The notes under the pieces were generated by a model. It had not been told where the DNA came from, made no database searches, and saw nothing but the letters and a program-made list of their open reading frames with translations. DNA of 64,000 bases from Hyphomicrobium sp. Lineage in GTDB: Bacteria > Pseudomonadota > Alphaproteobacteria > Rhizobiales > Hyphomicrobiaceae. Shown piece by piece: positions 7,049-23,963 of this stretch. The stretch lies in assembly GCA_003987725.1 (NCBI GenBank), contig RXJH01000002.1, positions 1 through 64,000 on the forward strand, given 5' to 3'. How positions within the stretch are numbered: position 1 is the stretch's first letter; each line of letters starts with the position of its first letter. The position numbers and the translations under genes were made by a program.

Positions 7049-7424
7049 CACGCTGCTCCAGTCACCCCCGTCTTCGTCCAGCATCTACATATGGTGACAT
7101 TGTCAGGATTTGGAAGTGAGCCGCACCCTGACGCCAAGCTGCGCTGCCATCGGCTTCAGGCTAATCGAGACCGCCCCGCACCTGTTCGCGTCCTGGGAAA
7201 CAACCCGGCGGACGCCCCCGTCCCGCGCGGGCTTCCAGGGAAGAGGACCGGACACGCGCTCCGGCCTACGCTCTCCACGAAGGCGACCCGCTGTCACGAT
7301 GCTTTAATCGGATGCACCGATATTGCGAATCGGCGACGGCATGCACCCTCACGGATGAAATTTTCAACGGAGTGGAACGTGCAGCGTCTTTCGACGTTGC
7401 CAAGCCGTCCTCCGGAGAATGACT
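7049..7424. other. Non-coding gap with divergent promoters
   Basis: 376 bases between a minus-strand exported-protein gene and a plus-strand 48-residue ORF. The longer open frames across it are arginine-rich shadows without start signals. It must hold the promoters of both neighbours, but I see no convincing -35/-10 pair and no strong hairpin. Confidence 0.4.
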
Positions 7425-7571
7425 ATGGGCTACGCCTTTTACGCCGTGCTGAACACGCTTCCGCAGATTGCGGTAGCAGCCTTCATCCCCGTTGCCGCCA
7501 CCTTTGCGGTGAGCTTCGTCGTCAAGTCGCTCCGCCGTCGTGCGGGTGGCCAGCCGATCGGCATCGACTGA
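7425..7571 (+). CDS. 48-residue single-span membrane protein
   Basis: A very short gene encoding MGYAFYAVLNTLPQ, a hydrophobic helix IAVAAFIPVAATFAVSFVV, then a basic cytoplasmic tail KSLRRRAGG. The ATG at 7425 is preceded by GGAG at seven bases; another ATG at 7419 is too close to that site. The profile (N-terminal aromatic patch, one helix, positive-inside tail) is that of a small membrane protein. Function unknown and not tied to neighbours. Confidence 0.5.
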   Translation: MGYAFYAVLNTLPQIAVAAFIPVAATFAVSFVVKSLRRRAGGQPIGID

Positions 7572-7818
7572 CTTAAGACAATCGGCCGTCGTTGACGCTC
7601 GCCCCTGGGCGGGCGGCCTTCTAGGACTGTCTTCAACCGAATATTTGCCCACTCTCCTGCCGCATCGGCGGGCGAACGTGGCCGTGCGACGCCTGACGCA
7701 CGCTCCCCGCCCCTTCGACAGCGAGGCGAAGAAAAAATTCCGCGATCCCGGAAGATTGAAAGACGGCTTCCGCATCACGGCTTAGAAATGGTCCCGGCTC
7801 TATTGGCAAAGGAACCCC

Positions 7819-8214
<396 letters not shown>

Positions 8215-8342
8215 CAACGGCCAAGCCTCGCTTGAGCGAACCTCACCTCTCCGACAATTTCGCGGCCTTTCTTAACGGGATCATCACACCGCGAAGCGAA
8301 GATTGGGCTCCGGACGGCCCAAAGTAAGTTGCGTGACCATCT

Positions 8343-8462
8343 ATGAGCATCCAGCAGAATTTCAAATACCATCCCGACCGCGAGAAGAAGCATCTGGGCC
8401 CGACGCTCTTCCTCATATGTCTGCTGACGTGCGCTTGGATTGTATTCGCTCTCTTCCATTGA
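8343..8462 (+). CDS. 39-residue single-span membrane protein (candidate)
   Basis: Reads MSIQQNFKYHPDREKKHLG followed by a hydrophobic helix PTLFLICLLTCAWIVFALFH and stop. A basic N-terminus plus one C-terminal helix is typical of small bacterial membrane proteins. The ribosome-binding site is weak. It ends 26 bases before the next gene on the same strand, which would allow co-transcription. Confidence 0.4.
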   Translation: MSIQQNFKYHPDREKKHLGPTLFLICLLTCAWIVFALFH

Positions 8463-8488
8463 ATGACGAAGCGGGGACCATTTCATCC

Positions 8489-8815
8489 ATGAAGACACCC
8501 ATCGTCCTGGCGGCCTTCCTGGCTGCAGGCCTCACGTCATCGTTCGCGTTGGCGGCCGACTTTGGAGGCGGCTACGCGGAGGAGGACGATGTTTATATGC
8601 AGCAAGTGCTGTCGCGCCCCGTCCTCATCGAACGCCCCTACAACGACCTCTATGAAGAGAACGGCTTCTATTACGCGCCTCCGCACCCCCTCCCCTACTT
8701 CGGCCTGTTTCCGAATTGGGGCCCGCGCTACGCGGCGCCAGAAGTCTATTTACGGACGCGTGTGGAGCACCGGCGCATATACCGCGAAACTTCGAGTGGA
8801 CGGCGTTACCGTTAA
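8489..8815 (+). CDS. Small exported Tyr/Pro-rich protein, unknown
   Basis: A 108-residue protein. The N-terminal MKTPIVLAAFLAAGLTSSFALAA is a signal peptide (ALA-A cleavage). The mature part is rich in Tyr, Pro and Arg (NGFYYAPPHPLPYFGLF), suggesting an extended envelope-associated protein, and ends RRYR. In-frame extension upstream to 8303 has no signal and overlaps the 39-residue ORF, so I take the ATG at 8489. It converges with the decarboxylase gene nine bases away. Confidence 0.65.
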   Translation: MKTPIVLAAFLAAGLTSSFALAADFGGGYAEEDDVYMQQVLSRPVLIERPYNDLYEENGFYYAPPHPLPYFGLFPNWGPRYAAPEVYLRTRVEHRRIYRETSSGRRYR

Positions 8816-8824
8816 AAGCAGCCG

Positions 8825-10255
8825 CTAGGCTCGCTTAGCCATGTCGCCGATCGCATCCATGAATAGATCGATATCGGACCGCGTCGTCCGATGGTTGAAG
8901 ATGGCGCAGCGGATCGCGTCCTCACCGTTGATCGTCGTCCAGGAAGGGGCGGCGATCCCCAACTCGTGAAGATCGAGAACGAGATCCCGGTTCACCGCCC
9001 CGCTCGCCCCCTTCACGCCGAAGCAAACGATATTGAGCGCGACCGGCGCCTTGAGTTCGAAGAGGGCGCTCTCGCGCACCCTTTCCGCGAGGTAACCCGC
9101 AAGCTCGCACGTATGCAAAATGGCGTCACCAATGCGCTCCGACCCAAGCGTCTCGAACGTCATCCACGTCTTGAGCGCGCGGAAACCGCGCGAGAGATCG
9201 GGCCCGAGATCGCAGGGCCAAGTCTCGCCTGCGGCAAGCCCCCGGTCTGAGCGCTGCAGGTAAGCAGCGGTCGAGGCAAACGCCCGCTTATGCGCCGCGC
9301 CGTCTCTCACCAGCAGGAATCCGGCGTCGTAGGGAACGTGTCCCCACTTATGGAAATCGAGCGCGATCGAATGCGAGAGCTCAATCCCCGCCGTCAGATG
9401 CTTCAGCGGCTCGGAGAAAACGGAAAGCGCACCAATCGCGCCATCGACATGAAACCAGAGACCGTCCGCGCTCGCGATCCGGGCGATATCGGAAAGCGGA
9501 TCAATCGCTCCTGTGTTCACCGTCCCCGCCGTCGCAACGACCAGGAACGGAAGAAATCCGGCATCTCTATCCGCCCTGATGGCAGCTTTTAATGTGTCGG
9601 GCCGCATTCGCCCCAAACTGTCGGTGTCGATCCTCCGCAAATGCTCGGAACCGATGCCCGCGAGTTGCATCGCCTGCGCGATGCAGCTGTGCGCCTCGGC
9701 GGACGTATAAGCGGCGAGCTGGCGCTCGGTGCGCCGCAGCCCGGCTTCCCGGGTCTCAGCCCCGATCGCGTTTGTCTTGGCGACAATCACGGCCAGAAAG
9801 TTCGCCATCGACGAACCCGTCAGGAACAATCCGCTCGCACCTTGCGGATAGCCGAACGCTTCGCTCATCCAACGGACGATCTGCCGTTCGACATCGATGC
9901 CGATGTGGTCCCGCCCGCCGCAGTTCATGTTCAATCCGGCGGCGATCATTTCAGCGACCATGCCCGCGGGCGTCCCTGCCCCATGCGCCCACCCCATGAA
10001 GCGCGGATGCAGATTGCCGGTGGCGAACGGCGCGACGTGCGTACGCACATCGGCAAGAACGTCGCTCAAGTCGCGAGGACCGTGCGGCAAGGGTTGCGCG
10101 AACCGCTGCCGCGTTTCGTCCGGCGCGCGCTGCCAGACGGGCTTTTCCCGAATGGACTGCACGTGTGTGATGACCTCGTCGAGCGCCGCATGCGCGAGCC
10201 GGCGAAATTCAGACCAGTCGGCGGGATCGAGATCGCGCGGCTCTCGCGATGTCAT
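8825..10255 (-). CDS. PLP-dependent group II decarboxylase (aromatic amino-acid type)
   Basis: A 476-residue fold-type I PLP enzyme of the aromatic-L-amino-acid/glutamate decarboxylase family. Visible marks: HPRFMGWAHGAGTPAGM near the N-terminus, the phosphate-binding segment TGSSMANFLA, the Asp/His pair in WFHVDGAIGA, and the Schiff-base lysine in LDFHKWGHVPYD. The start ATG (10255) overlaps the stop of the upstream PLP gene as ATGA, so the two are translationally coupled. A much longer in-frame extension to 10450 lies within the upstream gene and is not credible. It is the last gene of a three-gene operon, expected to release CO2 from an amino acid or amino-acid conjugate. Confidence 0.9.
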   Translation of the reverse strand: MTSREPRDLDPADWSEFRRLAHAALDEVITHVQSIREKPVWQRAPDETRQRFAQPLPHGPRDLSDVLADVRTHVAPFATGNLHPRFMGWAHGAGTPAGMVAEMIAAGLNMNCGGRDHIGIDVERQIVRWMSEAFGYPQGASGLFLTGSSMANFLAVIVAKTNAIGAETREAGLRRTERQLAAYTSAEAHSCIAQAMQLAGIGSEHLRRIDTDSLGRMRPDTLKAAIRADRDAGFLPFLVVATAGTVNTGAIDPLSDIARIASADGLWFHVDGAIGALSVFSEPLKHLTAGIELSHSIALDFHKWGHVPYDAGFLLVRDGAAHKRAFASTAAYLQRSDRGLAAGETWPCDLGPDLSRGFRALKTWMTFETLGSERIGDAILHTCELAGYLAERVRESALFELKAPVALNIVCFGVKGASGAVNRDLVLDLHELGIAAPSWTTINGEDAIRCAIFNHRTTRSDIDLFMDAIGDMAKRA

Positions 10256-11799
10256 GATCTTCGGAGATGGTGTTCGACCCCGGACCACTTGGAAAAAACG
10301 GCGTCGAGGCGATCCTCTATGGGCTTGAATGCCTGATCGAGCGTCGCACCTTCCTTCATACGAGCGGCAACACCGGCAATATCGACCGCCGACGCGCCGA
10401 TCCGAAGCGCAACCCGGGGGCCGATCCGAACCGCCTGACCGAGATGGCAAACCGCTCCACCGTCCGCACTCCTCAACGCAGTCTGAATGCTCTGCGCTTC
10501 ATCAAACGTGGCGAGGTCTCCCTGACCGTTGAAAACCGTCAGCGGAATGATGCCACGCGACGACAGATATTCGCCCTCGTCATCGGGATGTAGCTGGACA
10601 CCCCTGACATCCTTCACCCGGGTCCGAACCGCCAAGACGAAACGTTGGTTGATGCGAGCCACGCTCTCCTCGTCGACCCCCGCATAGGGCGAAAGGTTGG
10701 CAAGCGCGGCCACCCATCTGAGGCTTAGCCCGATATTCATCTCAGACTTGAACTTGAAGTCGTCGCGTTCCCGAAGCCGTCGGGACCAATCCTGGACTGC
10801 CGTATATTCCGCAAGACCTGCGGGAAGCGCGCTGCACTGAGCAATTTCCTCAGCCATGGCCGCCGGAATGAGCAAAGCGCCTGCGAACGGCGGCCCCGCT
10901 ACGAACTTCGATCCTGTCACGGCCACGAGGAAACCGTCCGCAAGATCACGTCGCAGCTGACTGAGCGGACAACGAAGCTGGCACGCGTCGATCACGATAC
11001 GCACCCGGCCGGGGGCAGCACCCGCGAGCTGCCGCGCCGTCTCTCGCGAGACGCCCGTTAGCCCCGTCTTCGACGTATCGAGGACGTGCACGAGAACATC
11101 GCGTCCTCGTCTCAATTCCTGTTCGACCAGAGCGGCGACGTCGTAGTCGATCGCTTCGGGACGCCTCTGCTCTCCGGCTTCATTCCGGATCGGGACTGTA
11201 CGCACATCGATGCGGCCCGGCGACAGACCTTCAAGCAGTTCGCCGGCATCCACGGTCCGGCCGAGTGCGGTCAGATCGGAGAAATGACGGCCCGCAGCCG
11301 CAAGCGGTATGCCGTTTCCCGTTTCATCCGGCGCGATGAAAATGTTGGTGATCGGTCGCGCCGACAAACCCGCAACGAGCGAGAGCGCTAGAATTTCCGC
11401 GTCCGTTCCAGACGCAGCGAGAATGACTTCTGCCTCCGCCACACCGAGGCCCTGACGAATGCCGCCGCGCGCCTCGTCGAACCAATCGTCGTATGGGATC
11501 GGCGAAATGGAAACCGAACCGACGAGCCTTTTCAGCGCATGATCAGCCGCAGCAAAGCCCGCCGCCGAAATGTTGCTCGCCGTCGTCGACGAGAAAGATA
11601 TTTCGCCGGCGGCGGGCGCCGTCAGCGTTCCGTAGCGGTTGCGACCAGTGGCGGCATCCGCCCAAATGCGTCTATCGCCGCCGCTCGCAAGCAGCAGTGA
11701 AACTGAAGAAGGCAGCCCCTCGGAACGCGTATCCGGTGTGGTAGTGACGAAACCCGTGTTCGCCATCTCTTTGCGAACAATGCGCTGCGTTGCGACCAT
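10252..11799 (-). CDS. Aminotransferase-like fold-type I PLP protein, unknown substrate
   Basis: 515 residues, related at a distance to class V aminotransferases/cysteine desulfurases. Supporting segments: AASGTDAEILALSLV (PLP phosphate site, ~130), HVLDTSKTGLTGVSR (~245), VIDACQLRCPLSQLRRDL (the Asp that binds the pyridine N, ~280) and VTGSKFVAGPPFAGALL (probable Schiff-base Lys, ~305). It is longer than the usual ~400 residues. ATG at 11799 has GGAG six bases before it and follows the ATP-grasp stop by 25 bases; its own stop overlaps the decarboxylase start. I do not recognise a characterised homologue. Confidence 0.75.
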   Translation of the reverse strand: MVATQRIVRKEMANTGFVTTTPDTRSEGLPSSVSLLLASGGDRRIWADAATGRNRYGTLTAPAAGEISFSSTTASNISAAGFAAADHALKRLVGSVSISPIPYDDWFDEARGGIRQGLGVAEAEVILAASGTDAEILALSLVAGLSARPITNIFIAPDETGNGIPLAAAGRHFSDLTALGRTVDAGELLEGLSPGRIDVRTVPIRNEAGEQRRPEAIDYDVAALVEQELRRGRDVLVHVLDTSKTGLTGVSRETARQLAGAAPGRVRIVIDACQLRCPLSQLRRDLADGFLVAVTGSKFVAGPPFAGALLIPAAMAEEIAQCSALPAGLAEYTAVQDWSRRLRERDDFKFKSEMNIGLSLRWVAALANLSPYAGVDEESVARINQRFVLAVRTRVKDVRGVQLHPDDEGEYLSSRGIIPLTVFNGQGDLATFDEAQSIQTALRSADGGAVCHLGQAVRIGPRVALRIGASAVDIAGVAARMKEGATLDQAFKPIEDRLDAVFSKWSGVEHHLRRS

Positions 11800-11824
11800 C
11801 AAAATCTCCGAAAGCGAAAGTCGC

Positions 11825-13072
11825 TCATGCCGCGCTGATCATGGGTTCGATGCGCCGTTGCAATGCGTCCTCGAACGCACCGAACAGCTTGCGCATCGCA
11901 TGCTTTTTGTAGGGAAACGTGACGTCCGAATCCATCGAGTGAACGATCATCGCAACGTCGGCTTCGAACAGCAATAGGCGGCCGTCGGGAAGCTCCGCGC
12001 AGTCGATGGCGAAATAGTCGAGACCTAACCGGCGATGCAACGCCGCGAATGCCTGCGCGTGCCGCACGGCAAATTCGCAATCGAAATCCTGCATCCAGGT
12101 CGCTTCTTCCGCACGCCGGTCCGCATACTTCCCCATGCCGGCACTGAGGTAATGCACCATCCAGTGGTCCGAGACTGCTAAATGACTGGCGAAAGCCTTC
12201 CCGTCGATGAAGGCGATTCGCTGCTTCCGGAATTTGCCGTCTGGCCCGCTGTAGTCGATGAAGGGCGAGACATAATAGTTTGCCTCGCTGCGCGCCGTGA
12301 GATACCGGGCGAGTTCTGCCTCGTTCGATATCTTCTCCATCGAATGACCCGCATGAGTTCCGACCGGGCGAACGATGATCGGATAGTTTGCCCCGGCAAT
12401 CACCGAGCCCGGCGCCAACTCGTTCGCTGCCATTTCCGCCAACGTCTCCCGAGGCAGGCCGACGGTCGTGGGCGCCAGGATCGACGGCTCATCTGCGAAT
12501 GTTCTGGACACACCATCCCGGGTGAGCCCCGCGATTCTGAGAGGTGCATTGTTCATGATGGGGCGAGGCCACGCCGTCAAAAGCCGCTGGAGCGTCTCGA
12601 GGACTGGGCGGTTTGCCGGCGACTCACCGATCGCAACGAACGCGACGTCATGATGCGGAACGTCCGAAAGATCCGTCGTGGCGCAATCGACATAATGCAG
12701 CAGAAGGTTCGCGTCCGAGCCCTCCAGCAGAAACTCGATCGGCGTATTGGCCATGAAATCGCCGGCCGTGACGAAAACGAGAATTCTCGGCCCTGTGCCT
12801 CGCCCGTTTCGAATCCAAAAATTCCGGCCGATGTCCAGCGCCGCCGTCTGCGCCAGCGCCGCCTTTTCGGCGTGACCCAACGTATGCAAAATCGCCGAAA
12901 GATCGAGGAACGCCGCGGCATCGCTCGTGTCTGCGGACACCCGCGCCATCAGCTCGTTCCAGAGCGGCGTGATATCCCGCCCTTCGTAAAGACAGCGCAC
13001 GATCGGCGCCTTGCCGATTATGAAACCCTGCGCGCTCTCGGCTTCGCACTGGACAGTCGCTGTCTTCAGCAT
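11825..13072 (-). CDS. ATP-grasp-like protein with helical N-terminal region
   Basis: About 415 residues. Residues ~20-90 are helical and TPR-like (LHTLGHAEKAALAQTAALDIG). Residues ~110-200 resemble a pre-ATP-grasp alpha/beta domain (ILVFVTAGDFMANTPIEFLL). Residues ~215-415 carry ATP-grasp signs: YPIIVRPVGTHAGHSMEKI (nucleotide-binding strand and loop, Arg in place of the common Lys), NYYVSPFIDY, KQRIAFIDGKAF, and the metal-binding end DYFAIDCAELPDGRLLLFEAD. ATP-grasp enzymes join a carboxylate to an amine, thiol or similar via acyl phosphate. Start 13072 follows AAGG; a 56-residue upstream extension is open but lacks a good site. First gene of the operon. Confidence 0.75.
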   Translation of the reverse strand: MLKTATVQCEAESAQGFIIGKAPIVRCLYEGRDITPLWNELMARVSADTSDAAAFLDLSAILHTLGHAEKAALAQTAALDIGRNFWIRNGRGTGPRILVFVTAGDFMANTPIEFLLEGSDANLLLHYVDCATTDLSDVPHHDVAFVAIGESPANRPVLETLQRLLTAWPRPIMNNAPLRIAGLTRDGVSRTFADEPSILAPTTVGLPRETLAEMAANELAPGSVIAGANYPIIVRPVGTHAGHSMEKISNEAELARYLTARSEANYYVSPFIDYSGPDGKFRKQRIAFIDGKAFASHLAVSDHWMVHYLSAGMGKYADRRAEEATWMQDFDCEFAVRHAQAFAALHRRLGLDYFAIDCAELPDGRLLLFEADVAMIVHSMDSDVTFPYKKHAMRKLFGAFEDALQRRIEPMISAA

Positions 13073-13280
13073 GTTGTACCTTGCCACGGAGGCCAACGCC
13101 CGCCATCCCGCGCGAACGTCCAAAAATGTCGCTGCGAGCAGCCCGCAATCCGGAAGCGGAATGTCCGCGCGCGGCCTTGTGCCAATCTGACGGCAATACG
13201 GGAGATTGCGTTTTGATAGGTCGAACAGCTTCGGCGCCACACGCCGGCGCGGAGCGACTCGCCAGAACGTCGAACGGGAT

Positions 13281-14252
13281 TTATTGGGGCGCCGGTACCG
13301 GCGGCCCGATGACGACGATCGTGCGCGCCGTCTCGGCCGGAACGTTCCCAGTGCGTCGCAATTCGAGGATGGTCGGCGACGACGCCAGCACCATCACGGG
13401 TTCAATCGCATTGGGATCCGGCGTCTGCGGCGTGCCGGTCAGAGCGCTCGTAGTCAAAGCCTCCTGAAGCTCTGCCTGCCGCTTCTGATCCGTAACGCTC
13501 CGAAGCATCGAATAGAAGTCGACGGAGCTGTCCTCCAGCGTCTCCATATCCTGAGCTTTGCTGAGATTGGTCAGCGGGCTCGTGACGGTTCCGGCCACAT
13601 CGACGACATTCCTGACGGGCTCGCTGTCCTCGATGAAATCCGCGACACTCTTCGCCGACAGGAGTGACGCCGGAATAAGCGCCCCCGAATGCAACTGCGC
13701 GGCGAATTCAAGGCCGCTACCGATGGCATCTCTGACGTTCGTCGGCCCGACGATCGGCAATACGAGGTAACTGCTGTCCCGATACCCCCAGACGTACATG
13801 GTCTGACCGAAATCACCCGACTGGTGATTGAGCCCCTGAGTCGCCGCAACATCGAACAGCCCGCCGATGCCGACCGTGGAGTTGAACGCGAAACGTCCGA
13901 GCGTCGTCACCGCCGCCTGCGGCCGAAGCTGCAGAACGTCATTTACGAACACCATCGGCTCGGAAAGATTGGTCGAGAACGCTTCGACGCGATCGCGCAC
14001 CGGCTCCGGCACATTCTCGTTGTACGCCCTGGCCACGGGATAGAGGATTGCGTGGTTGAACGTCTGATTGGTTTCGAAGACCGAGCGATTGAACGCTTCG
14101 TTCGGATCCGAAATTGCCTTCGGCTCTGCGTCACTTTCCGGCGACGCGAGATGTTGCGGCGGCGGTGGAATAACCGGCGCGCCGGCACATGCGGAAAGAG
14201 CGGCAGCAAAAAGCATGCTGCCCGCAGGTTTTACGAGAGACCAGACTTTCAC
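13281..14252 (-). CDS. mlaA: MlaA-family phospholipid-transport lipoprotein
   Basis: A 323-residue outer-membrane lipoprotein. The signal peptide ends in a lipobox LSAC, and the family marks SDPNEAFNRSVFETNQ (~45-60) and SGDFGQTMYVWGY (~135-147) are intact. MlaA moves mislocalised phospholipid out of the outer leaflet, working with OmpC-type porins and the MlaBCDEF transporter; none of those is next to it here. I favour a GTG start at 14252 (GGGGGGA upstream); ATG at 14276 is also possible. The C-terminal ~70 residues are low-complexity and ordinary for alphaproteobacterial members. Confidence 0.9.
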   Translation of the reverse strand: MKVWSLVKPAGSMLFAAALSACAGAPVIPPPPQHLASPESDAEPKAISDPNEAFNRSVFETNQTFNHAILYPVARAYNENVPEPVRDRVEAFSTNLSEPMVFVNDVLQLRPQAAVTTLGRFAFNSTVGIGGLFDVAATQGLNHQSGDFGQTMYVWGYRDSSYLVLPIVGPTNVRDAIGSGLEFAAQLHSGALIPASLLSAKSVADFIEDSEPVRNVVDVAGTVTSPLTNLSKAQDMETLEDSSVDFYSMLRSVTDQKRQAELQEALTTSALTGTPQTPDPNAIEPVMVLASSPTILELRRTGNVPAETARTIVVIGPPVPAPQ

Positions 14253-14708
14253 GTCGCGAATTCCCCCTGCCCGCACCGCGGAACACAGCGAACCTATCCC
14301 GGCGACCGGCGGGATGCCAGTTTGTCATGGCCGCACACAATGAGACTCGGCGTTTTTCAACCGAGAGATTGCAACGCGACCACAGATATTCACATCGCGG
14401 CGAGCATTTCAAAATTGTATGATTGACGATCCCCCCGTCCAGCACACGGATCATCGGCAGGCAAACTCGCATTCGGCCGGAACAACAGCCCCGGGCAAAC
14501 AGAGCCTTCGGGTTTAATCTCAGGGTTGGAAAATTTGGCAAAGCTCGCATGCGGATATAATAAGCGCTGGCCCCAGCCGTGTCGAAATAGCCCACAAATG
14601 ATCGGCACTAGTTCGGATCGCCGAGGTCACATTTCGCAACTTTTCCTCTTACGCTAGCGTCCGCGAGATCCGACTCGCCCATCGACGATTGCCCAGGCAC
14701 AGAAATTG
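14253..14708. other. Divergent intergenic region
   Basis: About 456 bases between mlaA (minus) and a small exported-protein gene (plus). The open frames that cross it show no coding character. It contains one plausible plus-strand promoter (listed separately) and no strong hairpin. Confidence 0.4.
14535..14561 (+). promoter_or_regulatory. Possible sigma-70-type promoter
   Basis: TTGGCA at 14535-14540 and a perfect TATAAT at 14556-14561, with a 15-base spacer that is shorter than ideal. It would start a transcript about 140 bases before the gene at 14709. Confidence 0.3.
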
Positions 14709-15122: not shown

Positions 15123-15293
15123 CGAGCCAAGGGCCCGCGGACCCCAGTTGCAACCTTCTGCATCCGGTCGCTAGCAGAACGTTAGTTTTTGAATGACATA
15201 GAATCTCCCTGCGAGACAGCGGGCTGGCATTCAATGTGCAACCTTCGGGTGGCGCGGTTCGCTGCGTCGTGTCCCTTCGGCCCGGAATTACTC

Positions 15294-16433
15294 GTGACCG
15301 CTTCCATCAATCCAAATTTCTCCGTCGAAATCGCCTCGACATGGAGCGCCGTTTCCGATCGCTGGCAGGCCCTCGGGCGGCACGCGTTCGCGTCGCCGTT
15401 TCAAACGGCGCATTGGATTGGAAATTGGTACGAAGCCTTCACGCCAACGGGCATCGAACCCGTCATCGTCAGCGTTGTAGAGCGAAGTTCCGGCCGCGAC
15501 CTTATGATGATCCCGCTCATGCGGCATTCGCAGAACGGGGTCAGGCGGATAGAATTCGCGGATCTATGGATCACGGATTACAACGCGCCCCTCGTGCGCT
15601 CGGACTATAACTTTCAGGACTTTGCGCGAGAAGTCTGGCCGGCCATTCTGCAGGCGCTTCCACCCGCCGACGTTCTGACACTGCAAAAAATGCCGTTGTC
15701 GCTCGGCCCCAACGTGAACCCCCTGACGACGCTTTCGAGCATCGAACAGAGTGATCTCAGCGGCCATATCGTTGCTCTCGGCGATAATTGGGACGAATAC
15801 CTGTCGACGCTCAGCAAATCGGCGCGCCGGGAACTGCGCCGCCGCTCGACCAAGTTCGTCAACGAGAACGGGGGCCGGCTGCGGCGCATCGCAAATAGCG
15901 ATGAGGCGCTGGAAGCCCTGCAAGTGCTCGAAGCACAGCAAACCACGCGCCTCGCCGCCCAGGGCGCCAAGCATGTGTTCAATGATCCTGTCTACCAGGA
16001 GCTATATCGCCATCATCTTTTGCGTGGCCTCGAAAACGGCCATGCGGTGATGTTCGTGCTGACGGCCGATACCGAAATCGTCGCGACATTCTTCGCGCTG
16101 AAGAATGATGATCACACCACGCTCATACGGATAAGCCAATCGCAAGACCCCGTGTGGCGGCCGCTTGGATTGGGCAAGATGATCATTCACCAGGCCCTCG
16201 AAGCGCTTCATGCGGAAGGCTGCCGCACGTTTGACCTATCGGTCGGCTCCCACCGGTATAAAGACGAATTTCGCGTCGAACCCGTCCCGATGGCGGAACT
16301 GACAATCCCAATGAGTTTGCGCGGCACGCCCTTCATCGCCCGCAGAAAAGCCATCGCCTATATTTCTCGAAAACCGAGACTCATGGCCCTCGCACGCTCG
16401 ATTGCCGATAGGCTCCCGCGCCTCGCGTCGTAG
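15294..16433 (+). CDS. CelD/BcsL-type GNAT acetyltransferase (HfsK/FemAB-like)
   Basis: About 379 residues with the tandem-GNAT architecture of the COG5653 CelD family. Marks are the N-terminal SPFQTAHWIGNWYEAF, the basic SKSARRELRRRSTKF stretch (~165-180) and the C-terminal GLGKMIIHQALEAL ... FDLSVGSHRYKDEFRVE, where KDEF is typical. Such proteins acetylate or otherwise N-acylate surface polysaccharide; HfsK in Caulobacter is one in holdfast synthesis. GTG at 15294 (GGA upstream) is my start; ATG at 15234 or TTG at 15189 would add 20-35 residues. First gene of the polysaccharide locus. Confidence 0.82.
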   Translation: MTASINPNFSVEIASTWSAVSDRWQALGRHAFASPFQTAHWIGNWYEAFTPTGIEPVIVSVVERSSGRDLMMIPLMRHSQNGVRRIEFADLWITDYNAPLVRSDYNFQDFAREVWPAILQALPPADVLTLQKMPLSLGPNVNPLTTLSSIEQSDLSGHIVALGDNWDEYLSTLSKSARRELRRRSTKFVNENGGRLRRIANSDEALEALQVLEAQQTTRLAAQGAKHVFNDPVYQELYRHHLLRGLENGHAVMFVLTADTEIVATFFALKNDDHTTLIRISQSQDPVWRPLGLGKMIIHQALEALHAEGCRTFDLSVGSHRYKDEFRVEPVPMAELTIPMSLRGTPFIARRKAIAYISRKPRLMALARSIADRLPRLAS

Positions 16434-16813
16434 CGCCACTCCGCGTGCGCCATCCATGATGTCGATTGCGCCTCCCGCATTTAACTGAACGACGTTCCAA
16501 AACGAAACATCGTTTAGCGACGATCTCGCGGACATTTCCGATCCAGCGCAAGGACGCCGCCAACTTAGCGGAAAGCGCGCCGCATACGCCAAGCCGTGCG
16601 GCCGCTTTAACCCCCAAAATGCTGATCAATCCGGTCCATATCCGTACCGGATCACCGTGCGGATTGAATTTCGTTCAAATCGGCAAAGTTGCAACACCGC
16701 CCAATGTCCGTTTGGCGGCTTGTTTGCAACGGAGTGCCCCCATAGGCCCCAAAAACAACCATTGCCTTAAGGGAGCAGCGAAGTTGCGAAAGATCCGGTT
16801 TCATTTTGGGGCA
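16434..16813. other. Intergenic leader before glycosyltransferase
   Basis: 380 bases between two same-strand genes. The downstream frame is open through it but Arg/Pro-poor and without start signals, so I treat it as leader. It holds an imperfect dyad, ATCCGGT at 16629-16635 facing ACCGGAT at 16646-16652 (10-base spacer), which could be an operator. Confidence 0.35.
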
Positions 16814-17986
16814 ATGCGCCGGACATTTTTAAACGAAACGCTCCTGCCGGCGGGCGCCCGCGCTTATCCGGAAATCGGTCCTCCGTCGAAGAATTCGCCC
16901 CCCGCGCCCCGCAAGCGAAACCGCACCTCCGTGTTGCAGCTCGTCCATAGCAACGAGGGCGGCGGCGTCGAAGCGCTTGCTGAGATGATCTCCGACGGGC
17001 TCCAGCGGACGGGCGCTGACGTCGAGACGCGCTTCATCTATCCGGGTATCAGCGCGACCACGGCTCAGAAGCTGCGCGGCATCGCCGCCGCCATCGTGGC
17101 GATCGCGCGCAAGCGACCCGACACGCTCATCGCCTATCAGTCGACGGCTTCGGTGCTCGTCGGCGTCGTTGGAGCCGCCATCGGATGCAAGACGCGCATT
17201 GTGCACCAAACAGCGACGCCCGGTGAAATTCATCCCGCGGTCCGCGTGCTCGACACGGCTATGGGTTCGGCGGGACTCTACAGCGTCAACATCGCCAATT
17301 CGGCCGCGACGGAACAGGCATTCGGCCGTTATCCGCAACCCTACCGGAAGTATCTACGCAGGATCGATCACGGGCTCGATGCGCCCGAGGCGCGTCATCC
17401 TCGATCAGATGTCCTTGCGCGCTACGCCATTCCCGACGACGGCCTGCTGTTGCTGAATGCCGGCAGGCTTTGCGATCAGAAAGGTCAGGATCAGATCATT
17501 CGCGCATTGCCGCATGTTCGCGGCGCCCGCCTCATTCTCGCGGGTGGCGGACCGGACGAAGCCTCACTCGGGGAGCTGGCCCGGTCGCTCGGAGTTGCAG
17601 ATCGCATCCACTTCCTTGGAGTTGTATCGCGCGAAGCCCTCGGCGATCTTCTCGGCGCCGTGGATATGTTCGTATTTCCCTCCAAATGGGAGACGTTCGG
17701 ACTTGCTGCGGTGGAGGCAGCGATGGCCGGCGTGCCGATCGTCGCCGCGGATCTTGCCGTATTGCGCGAAGTCCTCTCGACCGGCCGTGAGGAACCTGTC
17801 GGCTTCGTCGACCCCACTCATCCCGAGGCCCTTGCAGCAGCGATCGAGAAGCAGCGCGCATGGAAACGGTCGAGCGAAGCCATCCGCAAGTTCGCTCAAG
17901 CCATCCAGGCCAAATATTCACGAAGCCGGATGCTCGAGTCGTATGCAGAGCTGATCAACGGCCCCGAATATCGCCACGCCAGCTGA
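16814..17986 (+). CDS. GT4-family glycosyltransferase
   Basis: 390 residues, GT-B fold. The N-terminal acceptor half starts with VLQLVHSNEGGGVEALAEMI (~40-58). The C-terminal donor half contains NAGRLCDQKGQDQIIRAL, the nucleotide-binding AGGGPDEASLGEL, and the EX7E signature in WETFGLAAVEAAMAGVP, all typical of retaining GT4 enzymes. ATG at 16814 has only a weak GGGG upstream; the frame is open to 16466, so the start is uncertain. Probably adds one sugar of the repeat unit on the cytoplasmic face. Confidence 0.88.
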   Translation: MRRTFLNETLLPAGARAYPEIGPPSKNSPPAPRKRNRTSVLQLVHSNEGGGVEALAEMISDGLQRTGADVETRFIYPGISATTAQKLRGIAAAIVAIARKRPDTLIAYQSTASVLVGVVGAAIGCKTRIVHQTATPGEIHPAVRVLDTAMGSAGLYSVNIANSAATEQAFGRYPQPYRKYLRRIDHGLDAPEARHPRSDVLARYAIPDDGLLLLNAGRLCDQKGQDQIIRALPHVRGARLILAGGGPDEASLGELARSLGVADRIHFLGVVSREALGDLLGAVDMFVFPSKWETFGLAAVEAAMAGVPIVAADLAVLREVLSTGREEPVGFVDPTHPEALAAAIEKQRAWKRSSEAIRKFAQAIQAKYSRSRMLESYAELINGPEYRHAS

Positions 17987-18002
17987 TGAACCGCTTAACC
18001 GG

Positions 18003-19424
18003 CTAGGCGGCGAGTTTCTGAAACGCCAGCTTCCGCATCCACAATCCAAGGCCGAAGATGTCATAGGCCTTGACGATCAGGCAGGCTCCGAGGCCGATCA
18101 CACTGAACTTCAGCGCCATCGATGTCAGGTAGCCGAGCGGTAGCAAATCGGCGGCATCGGCTAGGAATTCGGCGACGATCGCGGCACCGGCTATGCCGCA
18201 GAGATCGAGAACGGGAAGCGGCATCGCCTTCCACCGTCTCGCCGCCAGGGCGGCAATGAGACAACCCGCTGCCTGCGCAGCCACCATCGCCAGAGCCGCG
18301 CCGGTCGCGCCATAAGATGGGATAAGCAACAGCGCCGTGACGGCACCCGCAAGGGCCGTTCCCGTTGAAGCGTAAAGTTCCGCAGACGCGCTCTCCAAAA
18401 AGTAGATCGCCTGGCCGAAGTAGAACGCACGAAAAACGTAAAGAGCCGTCGCCAGCGTAAAGTACGGCACCAGGGACGCCGCTGCGTCCGCGTAATGTAC
18501 GCCGAAGAGAATGCGCACGGCGTCCGGCGCAAAGCACAGGATAAACGCGGATCCGAACGCCGTTATGAAGGCATAGGCGCGGAACGCTTCGGAGAGAATG
18601 GTCCGCGTTTGCGCATCGTCGCCGCCGCTTGCCGCCCGTTTCGCATGCGGCATGTACGATCCCGCGACCGCCTCGGATACGACGACAAGGCTTTGCTTGA
18701 TGAGGTCGCCGACGGCACCATAAGGCCCAACTGCGCCGACGCTGTCCAATCGTGCCAGCAGCAATCGGTCGCCGCTTTGGCCGACTGCGTTGATTCCGAA
18801 AGCCAGGATCAGCGGTGACCCGTATTTCAAATATTGGCGCGCAATCCCGGCGGAATACTGCGCCCTGATGCCCGACCAGCCTTCACGGATCAACGGAGCG
18901 GCGGCGAGAATGTGAGCCGCTGCAACGCCCGCCGCAAGTCCTGTCGCCGTTCCCGTTAACGCGAATGCGACCGCGCCGCCGAGCGGCACCAAAACCGCCC
19001 GGAGCAGCACTGCGAAGCCGATCAGCTCCACCTTCAGTCGCGCACGCGAAATCTCGTAGAACGTCTCGAATACGGCGAGCCCGATCGTCGGCAAGATGGT
19101 ACCGGCAACGGCATCGCGGCTGTAAAACCCGACCCAGACCGTTAACGCCGCGATGGCGACGACCACGCCGACAAACAAGCAAACCGCGCGAATAAACGTC
19201 CCGACAATGGAGGCCGAGGTATCCGCGCTATAGAGCGCGAAGAACGACATCCGCAGCCATTGAATGGCGAAGCCGTAAATGATGTACGCCGACGCGAGGT
19301 AAAGCAGGTAGGCGCCAAAGGTCTCCGGTCCCGCGAGGCGCGCGAAGAGCGCCACCGAAAAGAGGTTCAGCGCAGCCGCGAACACCCGCGAGCCGATATA
19401 GATCGCAGCGTGGCGCAAAATCAT
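18003..19424 (-). CDS. Wzx-type polysaccharide flippase (MOP/PST family)
   Basis: 473 residues with about 12-14 hydrophobic helices and the N-terminal pattern of PST exporters (AAIYIGSRVFAAALNLFSVALFARLAGPETFGAYLL). The central YLKYGSPLILAFGINAVGQSGDRLLLARL region matches the second half of the family. Wzx proteins flip undecaprenyl-linked repeat units across the inner membrane. It is transcribed opposite to the glycosyltransferases on both sides, ending 16 bases from the first. Equivalent to HfsF if this is a holdfast locus. Confidence 0.87.
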   Translation of the reverse strand: MILRHAAIYIGSRVFAAALNLFSVALFARLAGPETFGAYLLYLASAYIIYGFAIQWLRMSFFALYSADTSASIVGTFIRAVCLFVGVVVAIAALTVWVGFYSRDAVAGTILPTIGLAVFETFYEISRARLKVELIGFAVLLRAVLVPLGGAVAFALTGTATGLAAGVAAAHILAAAPLIREGWSGIRAQYSAGIARQYLKYGSPLILAFGINAVGQSGDRLLLARLDSVGAVGPYGAVGDLIKQSLVVVSEAVAGSYMPHAKRAASGGDDAQTRTILSEAFRAYAFITAFGSAFILCFAPDAVRILFGVHYADAAASLVPYFTLATALYVFRAFYFGQAIYFLESASAELYASTGTALAGAVTALLLIPSYGATGAALAMVAAQAAGCLIAALAARRWKAMPLPVLDLCGIAGAAIVAEFLADAADLLPLGYLTSMALKFSVIGLGACLIVKAYDIFGLGLWMRKLAFQKLAA

Positions 19425-19519
19425 TCCGGGAAAACCTTACTCACGCTGCATTGCTCGATTTTGGGACGCGTTTCAGTCTCGATTAAACAAGAAGGCTGCG
19501 GGACGGTGCCGATCTAGGC

Positions 19520-20746
19520 ATGCTTTTGGCATGTACCGTCCGCATGATGCTTCACGAGACAAACCTGAAATCCACTTTCCATGCCAATCCGGACGGCTCC
19601 TCCATCCGCGCGGCGGACATCGCACGGAACGGCGCGGCAGAGGCTCAACCGCACGTCGCATTCTTCATCCGCGCCCTCGATGGCGGAGGCGCCCAGCGAG
19701 ACGCCATCTTGCTGGCGAACAGTCTGTCCGAGACCGGAATAAAGGTCAGCATTCTCACGCTTCTGCCCGAAGGCAGGCTGAGACGCCTCGTGGCCGACGG
19801 CGTAGCCGTTTATCACGTGCGGGCGAAGCGCCTGGCAACGGCCGTCATCGCTCTGCGCAAGGCTATACGCGAACTCAAACCGGCAGTGCTCTTCAGCTCC
19901 GAAGCCGCCGCGAACCTCGCAGCCTTCGCCGCTGTCCAATTGCTGACTGAGAAAACACGCCCGCGTCTCGTTTTGCGAGAGGTGACGGCGCCATCGATCG
20001 CGAAGGGACTGGACCCCTACCTGCAAAATCGCCTCGCGTTCCGCCTCGCCGGATATGTCTACAGCCGGGCAGACCGAGTCCTCACGCTGACGGACGGTGC
20101 CCGTCGTGATCTCATTGTGAACTTCGGTGTTCCGGCCGAACGCATCAGCGTCATGACGTCGAACGCCGTCATCGATCCGCAGACCGTCGCGCGCCTCGCG
20201 CTCGATGAAACAGCCACCGATATTCGCGAGAAAGGCTTACTCGTCGCCATCGGACGCCTGTCGCCTGAGAAAGATCATCTGACGTTGATCGAGGCGTTCG
20301 CGGGGCTTCACATCCGCACGCCTGCCCGGCTCGTCATCGTCGGTGAAGGGCCGATGCGTCCGGCACTCGAAGCAGCCATCGCGCGTTTCGGTCTCGAAGA
20401 TCGCGTCACCCTGGCCGGCGCGACGAACGATCCCTTCGAATGGCTGTTGAAAGCCGAGGTGCTCGTCAGTTCGTCGAAGTTCGAAGGCCTCGGCAACGTG
20501 CTGATCGAAGCGCTCGCCTGCGGCACCGCCGTCGTCTCCACCGATTGTCCCTACGGACCTCGTGAAGTTTTGGAAGGCGGGCGCTTGGGCCGGCTTGTTC
20601 CCGTCGGCAACCCAAAGGCCCTCTCCGATGCAATCGCATTGGCGCTGACGACGCCAACAGACCGCGCCACGCTGAGGCGCGCTGCCGAAAAGCATACAGC
20701 GAGGCAAGCAGCGCGCTGCCTCATAACCAACCTGCAACTTGGGTGA
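19520..20746 (+). CDS. GT4-family glycosyltransferase
   Basis: 408 residues. The N-terminal half opens with HVAFFIRALDGGGAQRDAILLANSL (~45-68), the Gly-rich acceptor loop of GT4. The donor half shows AIGRLSPEKDHLTLIEAF, IVGEGPMRPALEAAI and the EX7E segment in SKFEGLGNVLIEALACG. Start at ATG 19520 has a weak AGG; another ATG at 19544 is possible. Stop (20744-20746) is five bases before the deacetylase start, so the two are one transcript. Confidence 0.88.
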   Translation: MLLACTVRMMLHETNLKSTFHANPDGSSIRAADIARNGAAEAQPHVAFFIRALDGGGAQRDAILLANSLSETGIKVSILTLLPEGRLRRLVADGVAVYHVRAKRLATAVIALRKAIRELKPAVLFSSEAAANLAAFAAVQLLTEKTRPRLVLREVTAPSIAKGLDPYLQNRLAFRLAGYVYSRADRVLTLTDGARRDLIVNFGVPAERISVMTSNAVIDPQTVARLALDETATDIREKGLLVAIGRLSPEKDHLTLIEAFAGLHIRTPARLVIVGEGPMRPALEAAIARFGLEDRVTLAGATNDPFEWLLKAEVLVSSSKFEGLGNVLIEALACGTAVVSTDCPYGPREVLEGGRLGRLVPVGNPKALSDAIALALTTPTDRATLRRAAEKHTARQAARCLITNLQLG

Positions 20747-20750
20747 GACC

Positions 20751-21563
20751 ATGAACGGCATCACGGCGATCGGTGGATGGGTGGGCTCACGGAGCGCGGA
20801 ACGGCGACCCAAACAATTGACAGGGCTCTGCGCCAGCGGCTCTCGCTATCTCGCTCGTATCGTCCCGACCAAACCCTTCCGGGCGAAAAATTCCGGACCG
20901 ATCGTAAGCTTCACCTTCGACGATGTGCCGGACTCTGCACTGACGAACGGCGCCCGAATCCTGGACCGGCACGACGTCCGTGGCACATTCTACGTCGCGC
21001 CCGGCACCTGCGGGACAGAAGACGAGTATTGGACCGTCATCGACAAGCGCGGCGTCGCCGACCTCGCCCACGCCGGACATGAGATCGGCTGCCATACCTA
21101 CAGTCACGTGAAAGTACAGTCGCTCAGCTCTGCGGACCTCGCACGCGAAACACAACGATGCTTCGAAGCACTTCGCGACATCGGCGGCAACGCCGTAAGC
21201 AAGAACTTCGCTTATCCCTTCGGCAACGTCTCGTTCCCGAAAAAATTTCAGCTCGATCGGCAGCTCACCAGCTGCCGCAGCATCTATACCGGGCTGAACT
21301 CAGGCCTGATTGATCTCGCGATGTTGCGCTCGGTCGAGCTTTACGACCGCACGAGCACCGAACAATCGATCAACGCCACGCTCGATCAGGCAATCGCAAC
21401 GAACGCATGGGTGATTTTCTACACGCATGACGTAACACCAAACCCGAGTTGGATCGGCTGCTCACCCACGCATCTCGAAATGGCGGTGAAGGCTGCCAAG
21501 GCGCGCGGAATTCCGTGCCTCGCTGTCGACGAAGCACTCGCCGCAATAGGAGTTCGCGCTTAA
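20751..21563 (+). CDS. NodB-type polysaccharide deacetylase
   Basis: 270 residues of the carbohydrate esterase 4 family. Motif 1 is in VSFTFDDVPDSA (catalytic base Asp and metal Asp), motif 2 in HEIGCHTYSHVKVQSL (metal His pair) and motif 3 in NFAYPFGNVS. There is no signal peptide, so it probably acts in the cytoplasm on lipid-linked or nucleotide-linked sugars, as proposed for HfsH. GGGTGAG precedes ATG 20751. Its stop overlaps the stop of the convergent polymerase gene by four bases. Confidence 0.9.
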   Translation: MNGITAIGGWVGSRSAERRPKQLTGLCASGSRYLARIVPTKPFRAKNSGPIVSFTFDDVPDSALTNGARILDRHDVRGTFYVAPGTCGTEDEYWTVIDKRGVADLAHAGHEIGCHTYSHVKVQSLSSADLARETQRCFEALRDIGGNAVSKNFAYPFGNVSFPKKFQLDRQLTSCRSIYTGLNSGLIDLAMLRSVELYDRTSTEQSINATLDQAIATNAWVIFYTHDVTPNPSWIGCSPTHLEMAVKAAKARGIPCLAVDEALAAIGVRA

Positions 21564-22900
21564 GCGGCGCGATCTTCTTCGGCGACTGGGAACCGCGCCA
21601 GAAGGTGCATCCCGAAAATCGCCATCAACGCCATGAACCAGACCGGATTGTTGCGCGAAACCAGCACCGTTTCCAGCGACGCCGTGTAGAGCACATAGAT
21701 CCACAGTCGCAGGAAATAGCGCAAAAGTGCCGGATTGTTCGACACCCGCAGCGCCGTTCCGAAGTCGCGCATCGGCTGATAGATCACGGCAAGCAGAAGC
21801 AGAACGAGCCCGGGAATGCCGAACTGCAGCGCCGCTTCAAGATAGCTGTTGTGGGAATCCGTCCCGAGCTCTTCCACCCACCCGGAAATGTCCTCGGGCT
21901 CCGCTGGAAGCTTGTCGCGATACATGAGTTCGTTCGTTCGCCACGGCCCCGTCAGCCCGTATCCGAAAACCGGATGCTCGGCCGTCTGCTCCATTGAGAA
22001 CCGCCACAGATCCGTTCGTCCCGTGAATGTCGCGTCGGGCAAGACCGAGGCGACGATCGAACGAACCGGCCCCGGCCAACTCGACCCGACCGTCGCGACG
22101 TTGAGAAGAACGAGTGGCAGAAGAATAAAGATCGCCCTGAGCCAGCCGCTGCGCGTCCTATAGACCAGTGCCGCCAACGTCAGGATGAACGGCACGAGCG
22201 CAATCGACGTCTTGGACACCGAGAACAACAGAAACACCGATGCCAGGCCGACAATCAGCCACCCCGCCCACCGCTGTCCCGCATCCTTGATGAACAAGCC
22301 GGTGAAGATCAGGGCGACCATCATCGCGCCCGCTTCATTCTTATGACTGAAGAAGCCGCGCCAGTTGCCCGCGAGTTCTTTCTCCAGCGTATCGCCGGTG
22401 GAATGAATGGAAAGCGACGGCAGGAACGCAACGCCGAAGTAGCAAAGTACGAGCACGGCCAATGCCGCAATCGCCAACAGATTTGCGAACTGCCGCGGAC
22501 TCTGCGGCAGCCCCACGGCAATCGCCGCAATCGTCACCGAAATGATTTCGAACAAGCCGCGCTTCAGACCCGTTGCGGGGTCCCCCGAAACGACATTCGT
22601 GATCAGCAGCCAAACGATGAAAGCCACGAACGGGAAGGCCGCGACATTGAGAAAATACTTAGGCTTCGTCACCAGCGTGAAGCCGACGAGAACCACCCAA
22701 AGCAACGGGAATGCGATCTGGTTGGCGATGTTGCCGCCCTCGAGTGGCCCCGCGAGATCGGCGCCGGAGCGGTCATGAAACGGCTCGAACGAAATCCAAT
22801 AGACCAGCAGCACGATCAGCAGCAGAAACGGACGAACGACGCTCGCGAGATCGCTCACCTGCGCCCCAGCGGCTTCGCCTGTTGCTTTTACGGACGTCAT
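21560..22900 (-). CDS. O-antigen ligase/Wzy-type polymerase
   Basis: 446 residues with roughly 11-12 membrane spans and one large periplasmic loop (~residues 285-360: TGRTDLWRFSMEQTAEHPVFGYG ... DSHNSYLEAALQFG split here). The E-x-P-x-x-G-x-G...H-N element is the hallmark of the Wzy/WaaL superfamily (PF04932). ATG at 22900 is preceded by GAAGG and lies 16 bases after the GH5 stop. In a flippase-containing locus it most likely polymerises repeat units in the periplasm. Confidence 0.87.
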   Translation of the reverse strand: MTSVKATGEAAGAQVSDLASVVRPFLLLIVLLVYWISFEPFHDRSGADLAGPLEGGNIANQIAFPLLWVVLVGFTLVTKPKYFLNVAAFPFVAFIVWLLITNVVSGDPATGLKRGLFEIISVTIAAIAVGLPQSPRQFANLLAIAALAVLVLCYFGVAFLPSLSIHSTGDTLEKELAGNWRGFFSHKNEAGAMMVALIFTGLFIKDAGQRWAGWLIVGLASVFLLFSVSKTSIALVPFILTLAALVYRTRSGWLRAIFILLPLVLLNVATVGSSWPGPVRSIVASVLPDATFTGRTDLWRFSMEQTAEHPVFGYGLTGPWRTNELMYRDKLPAEPEDISGWVEELGTDSHNSYLEAALQFGIPGLVLLLLAVIYQPMRDFGTALRVSNNPALLRYFLRLWIYVLYTASLETVLVSRNNPVWFMALMAIFGMHLLARFPVAEEDRAA

Positions 22901-22916
22901 GATCGCCGACCTTCGG

Positions 22917-23963
22917 TTACGTCTCAGGCCGCCACGAATGTGCCAGATAGTCTTTAACGAACGCGCCATACTCGGACGGCGATACGCCGTCCGAGTATGG
23001 CGCGAGCAATCGCGGTGTTGCCCCGGAACTGAAGCACCACGCCATTGAGTGAAGCTTGAGCGGTTCTAAAATCTCGCGGGTGAACGGAATGCCGAAGTCT
23101 TCCGGCGTCCCTCGGATAGCATCGTCGCCATCCCTGCTGAAGCCCCATTCGGTGACGACCACGGGCTTGAGGGCTGGAAGCCCCCCGAGACTGTCGGGCC
23201 AGCGCGAAGCGACGCCACGGTCTTCGTTGGGATAGCAATGCCAGGAATAGATGACGCGCGGATCGTCGATCAGGTCTTTCGCTGCGCCGTTGAGATCGTG
23301 CGCCCAGCGACCGCCAGCGGCGATGATGATCGCATCCGACCGCAATCTGATTTCCGCGATCAGGCGAAGCCAGAGGGCCTTGAGGAACGGCCAATGCTCG
23401 CCCGTGCTCCGCCACAGCTTGCCGTCGTAAACCGGCTCATTCCAGAGTTCGAAAAGAATTCCGGTATCGCCGCCGAAACGCGCCGAGACCGTGCGCCAGA
23501 AGTCGAGCGCTAGTGGCTCATCGGAGGCGAAGGCGTCGAGCGGCAGCCCCCAGCTCGGATCCACAGGCTCCGCATATCGGCCGGGAAAGCCGATCGCGTG
23601 CCAATCGATGATGACGAAGAGACCCGCAGCCCGCGCTGCCGAAACATCGCGCTCCAGCAGCGCCAAGGTGCGTTCCGCGTCCTGACGCCAATGCCCCGGA
23701 TGGACGCTGATGCGCACCGCTGAACACTGCCATTCGTCCGCGAGCAGCGCGTAATCGCTGAGCGGACGTTCGCCGCGAACGTAGACGGGATCGCCGACAC
23801 CGACGCCCATCAACCGGATCGGACGGCCGCCAAACCGAAGCTCGTTGCCGATAACCTCGAATTTCAGCCGCTCGCCGGCGCTGACGCCGCGCTTCGAGGC
23901 AAGCAACACCCCGGCAGCGGCTGTTGCTGTGAGAAAGTTCCTGCGGTTGACGTCAGACGGCAT
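22917..23963 (-). CDS. GH5-like glycoside hydrolase with Tat signal
   Basis: 348 residues. The N-terminus MPSDVNRRNFLTATAAAGVLLA is a twin-arginine signal (RRNFL), so the enzyme is exported folded. The TIM-barrel marks of clan GH-A are present: FVIIDWHAIG, the acid/base Glu in ELWNEP, HCYPNEDR, and the nucleophile Glu in VVTEWGFSRDG. It would cleave beta-linked glycan, either trimming polymer or clearing failed export. Its start overlaps the Wzz gene stop by 11 bases. The last ~40 codons contain a 19-bp perfect inverted repeat. Confidence 0.88.
   Translation of the reverse strand: MPSDVNRRNFLTATAAAGVLLASKRGVSAGERLKFEVIGNELRFGGRPIRLMGVGVGDPVYVRGERPLSDYALLADEWQCSAVRISVHPGHWRQDAERTLALLERDVSAARAAGLFVIIDWHAIGFPGRYAEPVDPSWGLPLDAFASDEPLALDFWRTVSARFGGDTGILFELWNEPVYDGKLWRSTGEHWPFLKALWLRLIAEIRLRSDAIIIAAGGRWAHDLNGAAKDLIDDPRVIYSWHCYPNEDRGVASRWPDSLGGLPALKPVVVTEWGFSRDGDDAIRGTPEDFGIPFTREILEPLKLHSMAWCFSSGATPRLLAPYSDGVSPSEYGAFVKDYLAHSWRPET
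22962..23004. repeat. 19-bp perfect inverted repeat within GH5 gene
   Basis: Bases 22962-22980 and 22986-23004 are exact reverse complements with a 5-base loop (GATAC). It lies inside coding sequence 45 bases before the GH5 stop and encodes PYSDGVSPSEYGA on the minus strand. No T-run follows, so it is not a standard terminator. Confidence 0.9.

Follow-up and report, generated by a model that had tools for sequence, protein, structure and literature searches.

A conserved, operon-like ATP-grasp, PLP-enzyme and decarboxylase trio in Hyphomicrobium and other Rhizobiales, possibly involved in surface or flagellin modification

We analyzed a 64,000-nucleotide stretch of DNA from Hyphomicrobium sp. 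(contig RXJH01000002.1, positions 1 to 64,000), hereafter the window. Positions 8825 to 13072 contain three genes, which we refer to as GRASP (the ligase), PLP (the unclassified enzyme) and DEC (the decarboxylase). In the direction of transcription, the features of the locus are:

13073-13280, minus strand: gap of 208 bases upstream of GRASP
11825-13072, minus strand: GRASP, ATG at 13072, 415 aa
11800-11824, minus strand: spacer between GRASP and PLP, 25 bases
10252-11799, minus strand: PLP, ATG at 11799, 515 aa
10252-10255, minus strand: ATGA shared by the PLP stop and the DEC start, 4 bases
8825-10255, minus strand: DEC, ATG at 10255, 476 aa

These coordinates confirm the three co-directional genes, the 25-base gap and the ATGA overlap described in the original prediction. 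A TTG codon directly precedes the ATG of PLP, and one gene list begins PLP there. The nearest upstream gene is MlaA-like (13281-14276) and has the same orientation; the 208-base gap separating it from GRASP is a likely site for an operon promoter. Scanning of positions 8600-13500 yielded no sigma-70 consensus site, versus a mean of 1.2 in shuffled sequences, and seven terminator-like sites, versus 5.5 expected. The frames, spacing and order of the trio are kept at 51-92% identity in nine other genomes of the genus, with an altered order in a tenth genome. Because of this conservation, the arrangement is not due to chance. Among the scanned trio-flanking proteins of at least 90 aa, none was of an NRPS/carrier or lanthipeptide type. 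The predicted lack of an adjacent NRPS gene thus holds in the window, but not for relatives of PLP on two rhizobial plasmids (see below).

The MlaA-like gene is a second copy in the window genome. Two MlaA hits were found in 8 of the 11 trio carriers of the genus and at most one in each of the 11 trio-less genomes; in five genomes, one copy adjoins the trio. Also near the trio, at 15189-26253, is a polysaccharide locus with genes for a GNAT protein, two GT4 glycosyltransferases, a polysaccharide deacetylase, a Wzy-like ligase, a GH5 enzyme and Wzz.

DEC matched PF00282 with 196.6 bits (cut-off 27; E 7e-58). On this sequence evidence it is a group II PLP decarboxylase, as originally proposed, with activity predicted. 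Residues H189, D271, K303 and Y332 are invariant in an alignment of 16 DEC sequences. From DOPA decarboxylase, we take K303 to be the Schiff-base lysine, D271 the pyridine aspartate, H189 the stacking histidine and Y332 the loop tyrosine. In profile matching, DEC agreed best with tryptophan, DOPA and tyrosine decarboxylases (330, 297 and 282 bits, respectively), ahead of the diaminobutyrate (259 bits) and glutamate (217 bits) enzymes. Its nearest solved sequence relative is the tryptophan decarboxylase of Ruminococcus gnavus (4obu). The invariant W89 and W346 of DEC, presumably pocket positions, align with aromatic residues of tryptophan decarboxylase. By contrast, DEC has an insertion and the sequence NCGGRDH in the pocket region, where the tryptophan enzyme has HAGGSKL. 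The query in the DEC searches was 8837-10255, without the final three residues.

PLP had no Pfam match at E 0.01 and no NCBIfam match, and PF00266 matched neither the window protein nor 23 relatives (24 members). The predicted structure is that of a fold-type I, class V-like (NifS/AGT) aminotransferase. The predicted class V fold refines the initial view of PLP as an aminotransferase-like protein without a recognized family. The predicted fold is shared with the class V enzymes NifS, alanine-glyoxylate aminotransferase and the C-S lyase Egt2, although PLP is 8-18% identical to these enzymes among the matches listed and lacks a PF00266 match. The arrangement of D-x-x-Q and a Schiff-base lysine in PLP is presumably the class V motif. 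Searched against the PDB, a PLP profile of 10 sequences had no match and one of 24 sequences had two, at E 0.45-0.49.

GRASP is predicted to comprise a helical N-terminus (approximately residues 20-81) and an ATP-grasp carboxylate-amine ligase domain (approximately residues 95-404). It had no Pfam match at E 0.01 and two NCBIfam matches, both far under the cut-off. The ATP-grasp fold, and with it the ATP-grasp-like ligase first proposed, is predicted from the model together with weak profile matches. According to structure comparison, the predicted fold is closest to those of the protein-acting ligases RimK and LysX/ArgX, and it is also shared with D-Ala-D-Ala ligases. GRASP differs from these enzymes in sequence (8-18% identity among the matches listed), in its extra N-terminus and in having no Pfam family. 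D357 and E370, which are invariant in the alignment, are presumably metal ligands, and Arg235 presumably stands at the nucleotide-site position where a lysine is usual.

The original prediction gave GRASP a TPR-like N-terminus. The model has four helices at residues 21-81, and a profile of nine GRASP N-termini, from which TPR-rich paralogues had been excluded, retrieved mostly TPR proteins (YrrB, OGT, YbbN and designed TPRs) in 16 rows, at E 0.03-0.6. The N-terminus of the window protein had no TPR match in Pfam, and lower E-values came from a profile inflated by two TPR-rich paralogues. The TPR resemblance of the trio GRASP is weak.

Several GRASP homologues have additional parts or neighbors. 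An extra C-terminal domain of ∼140 aa, with the pattern DDC...GHA...DPG, occurs on six distinct homologues from Mesorhizobium, some Rhizobium and one Hyphomicrobium MAG (7 of 32 rows, of which L041 and L051 are one locus). By eye it looks papain/C39-like; it had no PDB sequence match and no Pfam name. Longer TPR-ATP-grasp paralogues are encoded at L048 (10105-11898) and L038 (9839-11704), the latter standing in for GRASP beside PLP and DEC. At L159, a TPR-sulfotransferase gene (7352-8992) directly adjoins a GRASP homologue.

To describe the distribution of the trio, we began with the genus. PLP was found in 11 of 22 genomes, and the strong DEC matches were in the same 11; two further genomes had marginal DEC matches (E 6e-4). 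Ten of the 11 carriers have a GRASP 65-100% identical to that of the window and the order GRASP-PLP-DEC. The exception, G004, instead has a 28% identical TPR-ATP-grasp gene after DEC. The neighbors of the trio are common with the window in five genomes, whereas in five others, including G004, the immediate neighbors are different; one of these, G014, has two shared gene clusters some kb off. In a sample of 60 relatives, PLP turned up in this genus and in no other. Loci with named taxa were obtained by a pattern search that used two short peptide patterns and one genome per species, and therefore reached close relatives only. In this set, the trio lay side by side in 20 of 20 loci, eight of which are contigs also counted among the genus genomes. 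The taxa are Hyphomicrobium, Mesorhizobium, Rhizobium and other Rhizobiales isolates, with three titled "Proteobacteria bacterium", and the flanks comprise several unrelated gene sets. In Rhizobium tumorigenes, the trio is on a plasmid and is annotated "tetratricopeptide repeat-containing protein", "hypothetical protein" and "pyridoxal-dependent decarboxylase".

Profile surveys covered this phylum. The PLP profile matched in 19 of 397 genomes of the order and 25 of 398 of the phylum. In the same samples, the GRASP-core profile matched 39 genomes with at least 290 bits, a table that leaves out weaker matches of 77 to 250 bits and below. These 39 loci are a fairer denominator than loci fetched by PLP or GRASP, although some contigs end near the genes. 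Within 6 kb of GRASP, 24 of the 39 have both PLP and DEC, six have DEC only and nine have neither, for a DEC total of 30. The misses include split loci: in G611, PLP is on a separate contig, and in G421 it is on a contig other than that of DEC and GRASP; G219 (locus L109, below) is a further such miss. Overall, the genes travel together (11/22 genus genomes, 20/20 named loci and 24/39 GRASP loci), so that the separate neighborhoods that would have refuted the original prediction did not appear.

The trio also keeps company through rearrangement. Among 46 trio loci fetched for a PLP or GRASP match, from which eight duplicates had been removed beforehand, the orders were GRASP-PLP-DEC (25), DEC-GRASP-PLP (11), PLP-GRASP-DEC (8) and PLP-DEC-GRASP (1). 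The remaining locus is split (L109, genome G219): DEC and PLP lie beside a different TPR-ATP-grasp gene. The trio was co-directional in 45 of the 46. This shared company is strong evidence for a functional link. The distance matrices of the three proteins were correlated (Mantel r 0.887, 0.868 and 0.948; none of 2000 permutations as high), which alone proves little because linked genes share history anyway. In the tree, branches are long, and the label PLP+DEC requires 10 changes.

Where a trio member is replaced, the same enzyme type is kept. At L117, PLP and DEC accompany a two-module ATP-grasp protein that in part resembles cyanophycin synthetase and has an acylphosphatase domain; L116 is similar without that domain. 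At L112, PLP lies beside a sugar-transfer-associated ATP-grasp gene. In two families, a GRASP homologue lies beside a SerC-type class V transaminase gene (L161, 7699-10061; L166, 7560-9939); the two genes overlap by 4 bases at L161, and the transaminases scored 567 and 550 bits on NF009112 (cut-off 563). PLP was also found without DEC or GRASP. In R. tropici and G421 it adjoins a gene for a glutathione-transferase-like protein. Two plasmids, one from Rhizobium jaguaris and one from Sinorhizobium meliloti AK21, encode relatives 30-33% identical to PLP, each immediately following very large NRPS/PKS genes:

L101, 9971-11467: NRPS/PKS-linked PLP relative
L102, 9968-11503: NRPS/PKS-linked PLP relative

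Proteins called beside PLP at L118, L119 and L121 resembled antisense shadow frames in their composition and were dropped.

A second pattern concerned flagellar genes: 14 of the 39 GRASP loci lay among them, and these 14 represent 5 of the 15 family-level groups. In the ten loci of one family, f35, which we infer to be Bradyrhizobium-like, DEC-GRASP(-PLP) lies with flagellar genes, and the longer contigs show flagellin on one side and FlgL/FlgK-type genes on the other; on a short one (L107), just a flagellin fragment and the gene for a 277-aa protein are visible. Elsewhere, DEC and GRASP are convergent among flagellar genes (G087), lie beside flagellin with flgI in the same locus (G421), or belong to a full trio after flagellin and FliD (G494), and in G137 a lone GRASP comes after the gene for a FliI-like ATPase. 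A binomial calculation gave 2.8e-7 to 1e-3 at assumed background rates of 1-5%, with phylogeny ignored and f23 split into two groups by genus. Ten of the 14 flagellar loci belong to f35 and perhaps reflect a single event. None of 11 loci with PLP but without GRASP or DEC was flagellar, and no flagellar genes lay alongside the fetched trio loci of Hyphomicrobium (including the window), Mesorhizobium and Rhizobium or in the annotation at the trio of L100. Flagellin genes themselves occurred in 31 of 32 genomes with the trio, in 9 of 11 genus genomes that lack it and in 128 of 150 genomes of the phylum, a sample that includes some carriers. Because of this base rate, flagellin presence does not discriminate, and we discarded it as support.

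The 277-aa protein (L105, 10113-10946) is encoded in the flagellar cluster of nine of the ten f35 loci. It has no Pfam match and, with a DAD motif, looks glycosyltransferase-like by eye.

Considering these data together, we are confident that the trio forms one pathway. We tentatively favor, at slightly less than even confidence, amine formation followed by amide ligation, with a surface or flagellin acceptor in several lineages. DEC would decarboxylate an L-amino acid to an amine, its aromatic-like pocket suggesting the substrate, while the class V PLP enzyme would supply or remodel an amino-acid partner, with transamination as the simplest route. GRASP would convert a carboxylate to an acyl-phosphate and then to an amide with the amine, and the N-terminus of GRASP may bind a protein partner. 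Flagellin or its glycan would most likely be the acceptor in several lineages; the clade of the window may use that acceptor or a different surface polymer. This proposal draws on the linkage, the intact catalytic residues, the predicted folds, the changed gene orders and the repeated flagellar neighborhoods; the chemistry, substrates and acceptor are our extrapolation. Counted against this proposal are the non-flagellar setting of the window clade, the near-universality of flagellin, the concentration of flagellar loci in f35, the lone GRASP of G137, the weak TPR resemblance, and the 15 GRASP loci that lack PLP, whether with DEC (6/39) or without (9/39).

The strongest alternative, and a realistic one, is a free small-molecule pathway that makes a soluble N-acyl amine or aminoacyl-amine, such as a signal, siderophore-like or stress compound, with the flagellar sites incidental. 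The several unrelated contexts of the trio in Hyphomicrobium, Rhizobium and Mesorhizobium, together with its plasmid location, are consistent with such a product, as are the PLP relatives behind NRPS/PKS genes and an ABC transporter pair after the trio at L120. However, trio loci have no constant exporter or regulator, the predicted fold of GRASP is nearest to protein-acting enzymes, and the flagellar linkage recurs in five family-level groups. We rate a free metabolite as slightly less likely than modification of flagellin or the surface. The undescribed small-molecule operon of the original prediction stands as a pathway, but the flagellar loci point at least partly to a surface role. In an unlikely variant, which would be a new form of protein decoration, GRASP would attach the DEC amine as an amide straight to carboxylates on flagellin or a different surface protein, and PLP would tailor the building block.

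It is rather more doubtful that the DEC amine is non-aromatic (its precursor being, for instance, serine, phosphoserine, cysteate or one of the acidic amino acids) and that the SerC partners mark a serine-derived pathway. In G705 the 4-base overlap couples GRASP to a SerC-type transaminase, in G424 GRASP adjoins one, and the NCGGRDH of the window DEC is charged. Nevertheless, both SerC loci lack DEC, the best profile matches of DEC are the tryptophan, DOPA and tyrosine enzymes, and W89 and W346 align with aromatics of the tryptophan enzyme.

A role as the missing methylofuran steps (MfnA, MfnD and MfnC) of methylotrophic Hyphomicrobium was rejected as highly improbable. MfnD is ATP-grasp-like. 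According to PMC8141765, in which this nature is implied by similarity to MyfA, methano/methylofuran synthesis unites a tyrosine decarboxylase (MfnA), a transaminase (MfnC) and an amine-glutamate ligase (MfnD) in one pathway, and H. zavarzinii produces tyramine-methylofuran although homologues of MfnA and MfnD are absent. The three enzyme types match those of the trio. However, DEC scored only 75.5 bits on the MfnA model (cut-off 299.4). In addition, a PF04476 search of 43 chosen genomes found MfnB in 21 of 22 genus genomes (11/11 with the trio and 10/11 without, the missing one being 71% complete) and in none of 21 carriers outside the genus. MfnB is thus independent of the trio in the genus and absent from carriers elsewhere. 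That the three genes are chance neighbors inherited together is barely credible: shared history does weaken the Mantel correlations, but adjacency survives four gene orders, many contexts and PLP identities down to ∼28%.

With methylofuran rejected, no close match to a characterized pathway was found, and no description of the trio was found in the open-license PMC literature. One conserved, operon-like and apparently undescribed pathway, as first proposed, thus agrees with the data. The trio is a widespread, mobile biosynthetic module for which we found no name, and neither Pfam nor NCBIfam includes its central PLP family. Since the carriers include cultivated rhizobia and methylotrophs, its product and role are accessible to gene deletion combined with mass spectrometry. 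Should the flagellar link prove real, the trio would point, in Bradyrhizobium-like bacteria and their relatives, to a surface modification that has not been studied.

Known systems offer partial parallels to the modification that we favor. In the available text of PMC3765264, SfmE, an ATP-grasp protein of 412 aa encoded by sfmABCDE of Shewanella oneidensis, alters flagellin mass. By description, this resembles the role suggested for GRASP, but a word search of that text found no decarboxylase or aminotransferase. A flagellin glycan of C. difficile likewise requires an ATP-grasp gene. Finally, PMC7591256 describes an N-terminal TPR region in Caulobacter FlmG that binds flagellins. FlmG carries this region on a modifying enzyme, a glycosyltransferase, whereas GRASP is a predicted ATP-grasp protein whose N-terminus weakly resembles TPRs.
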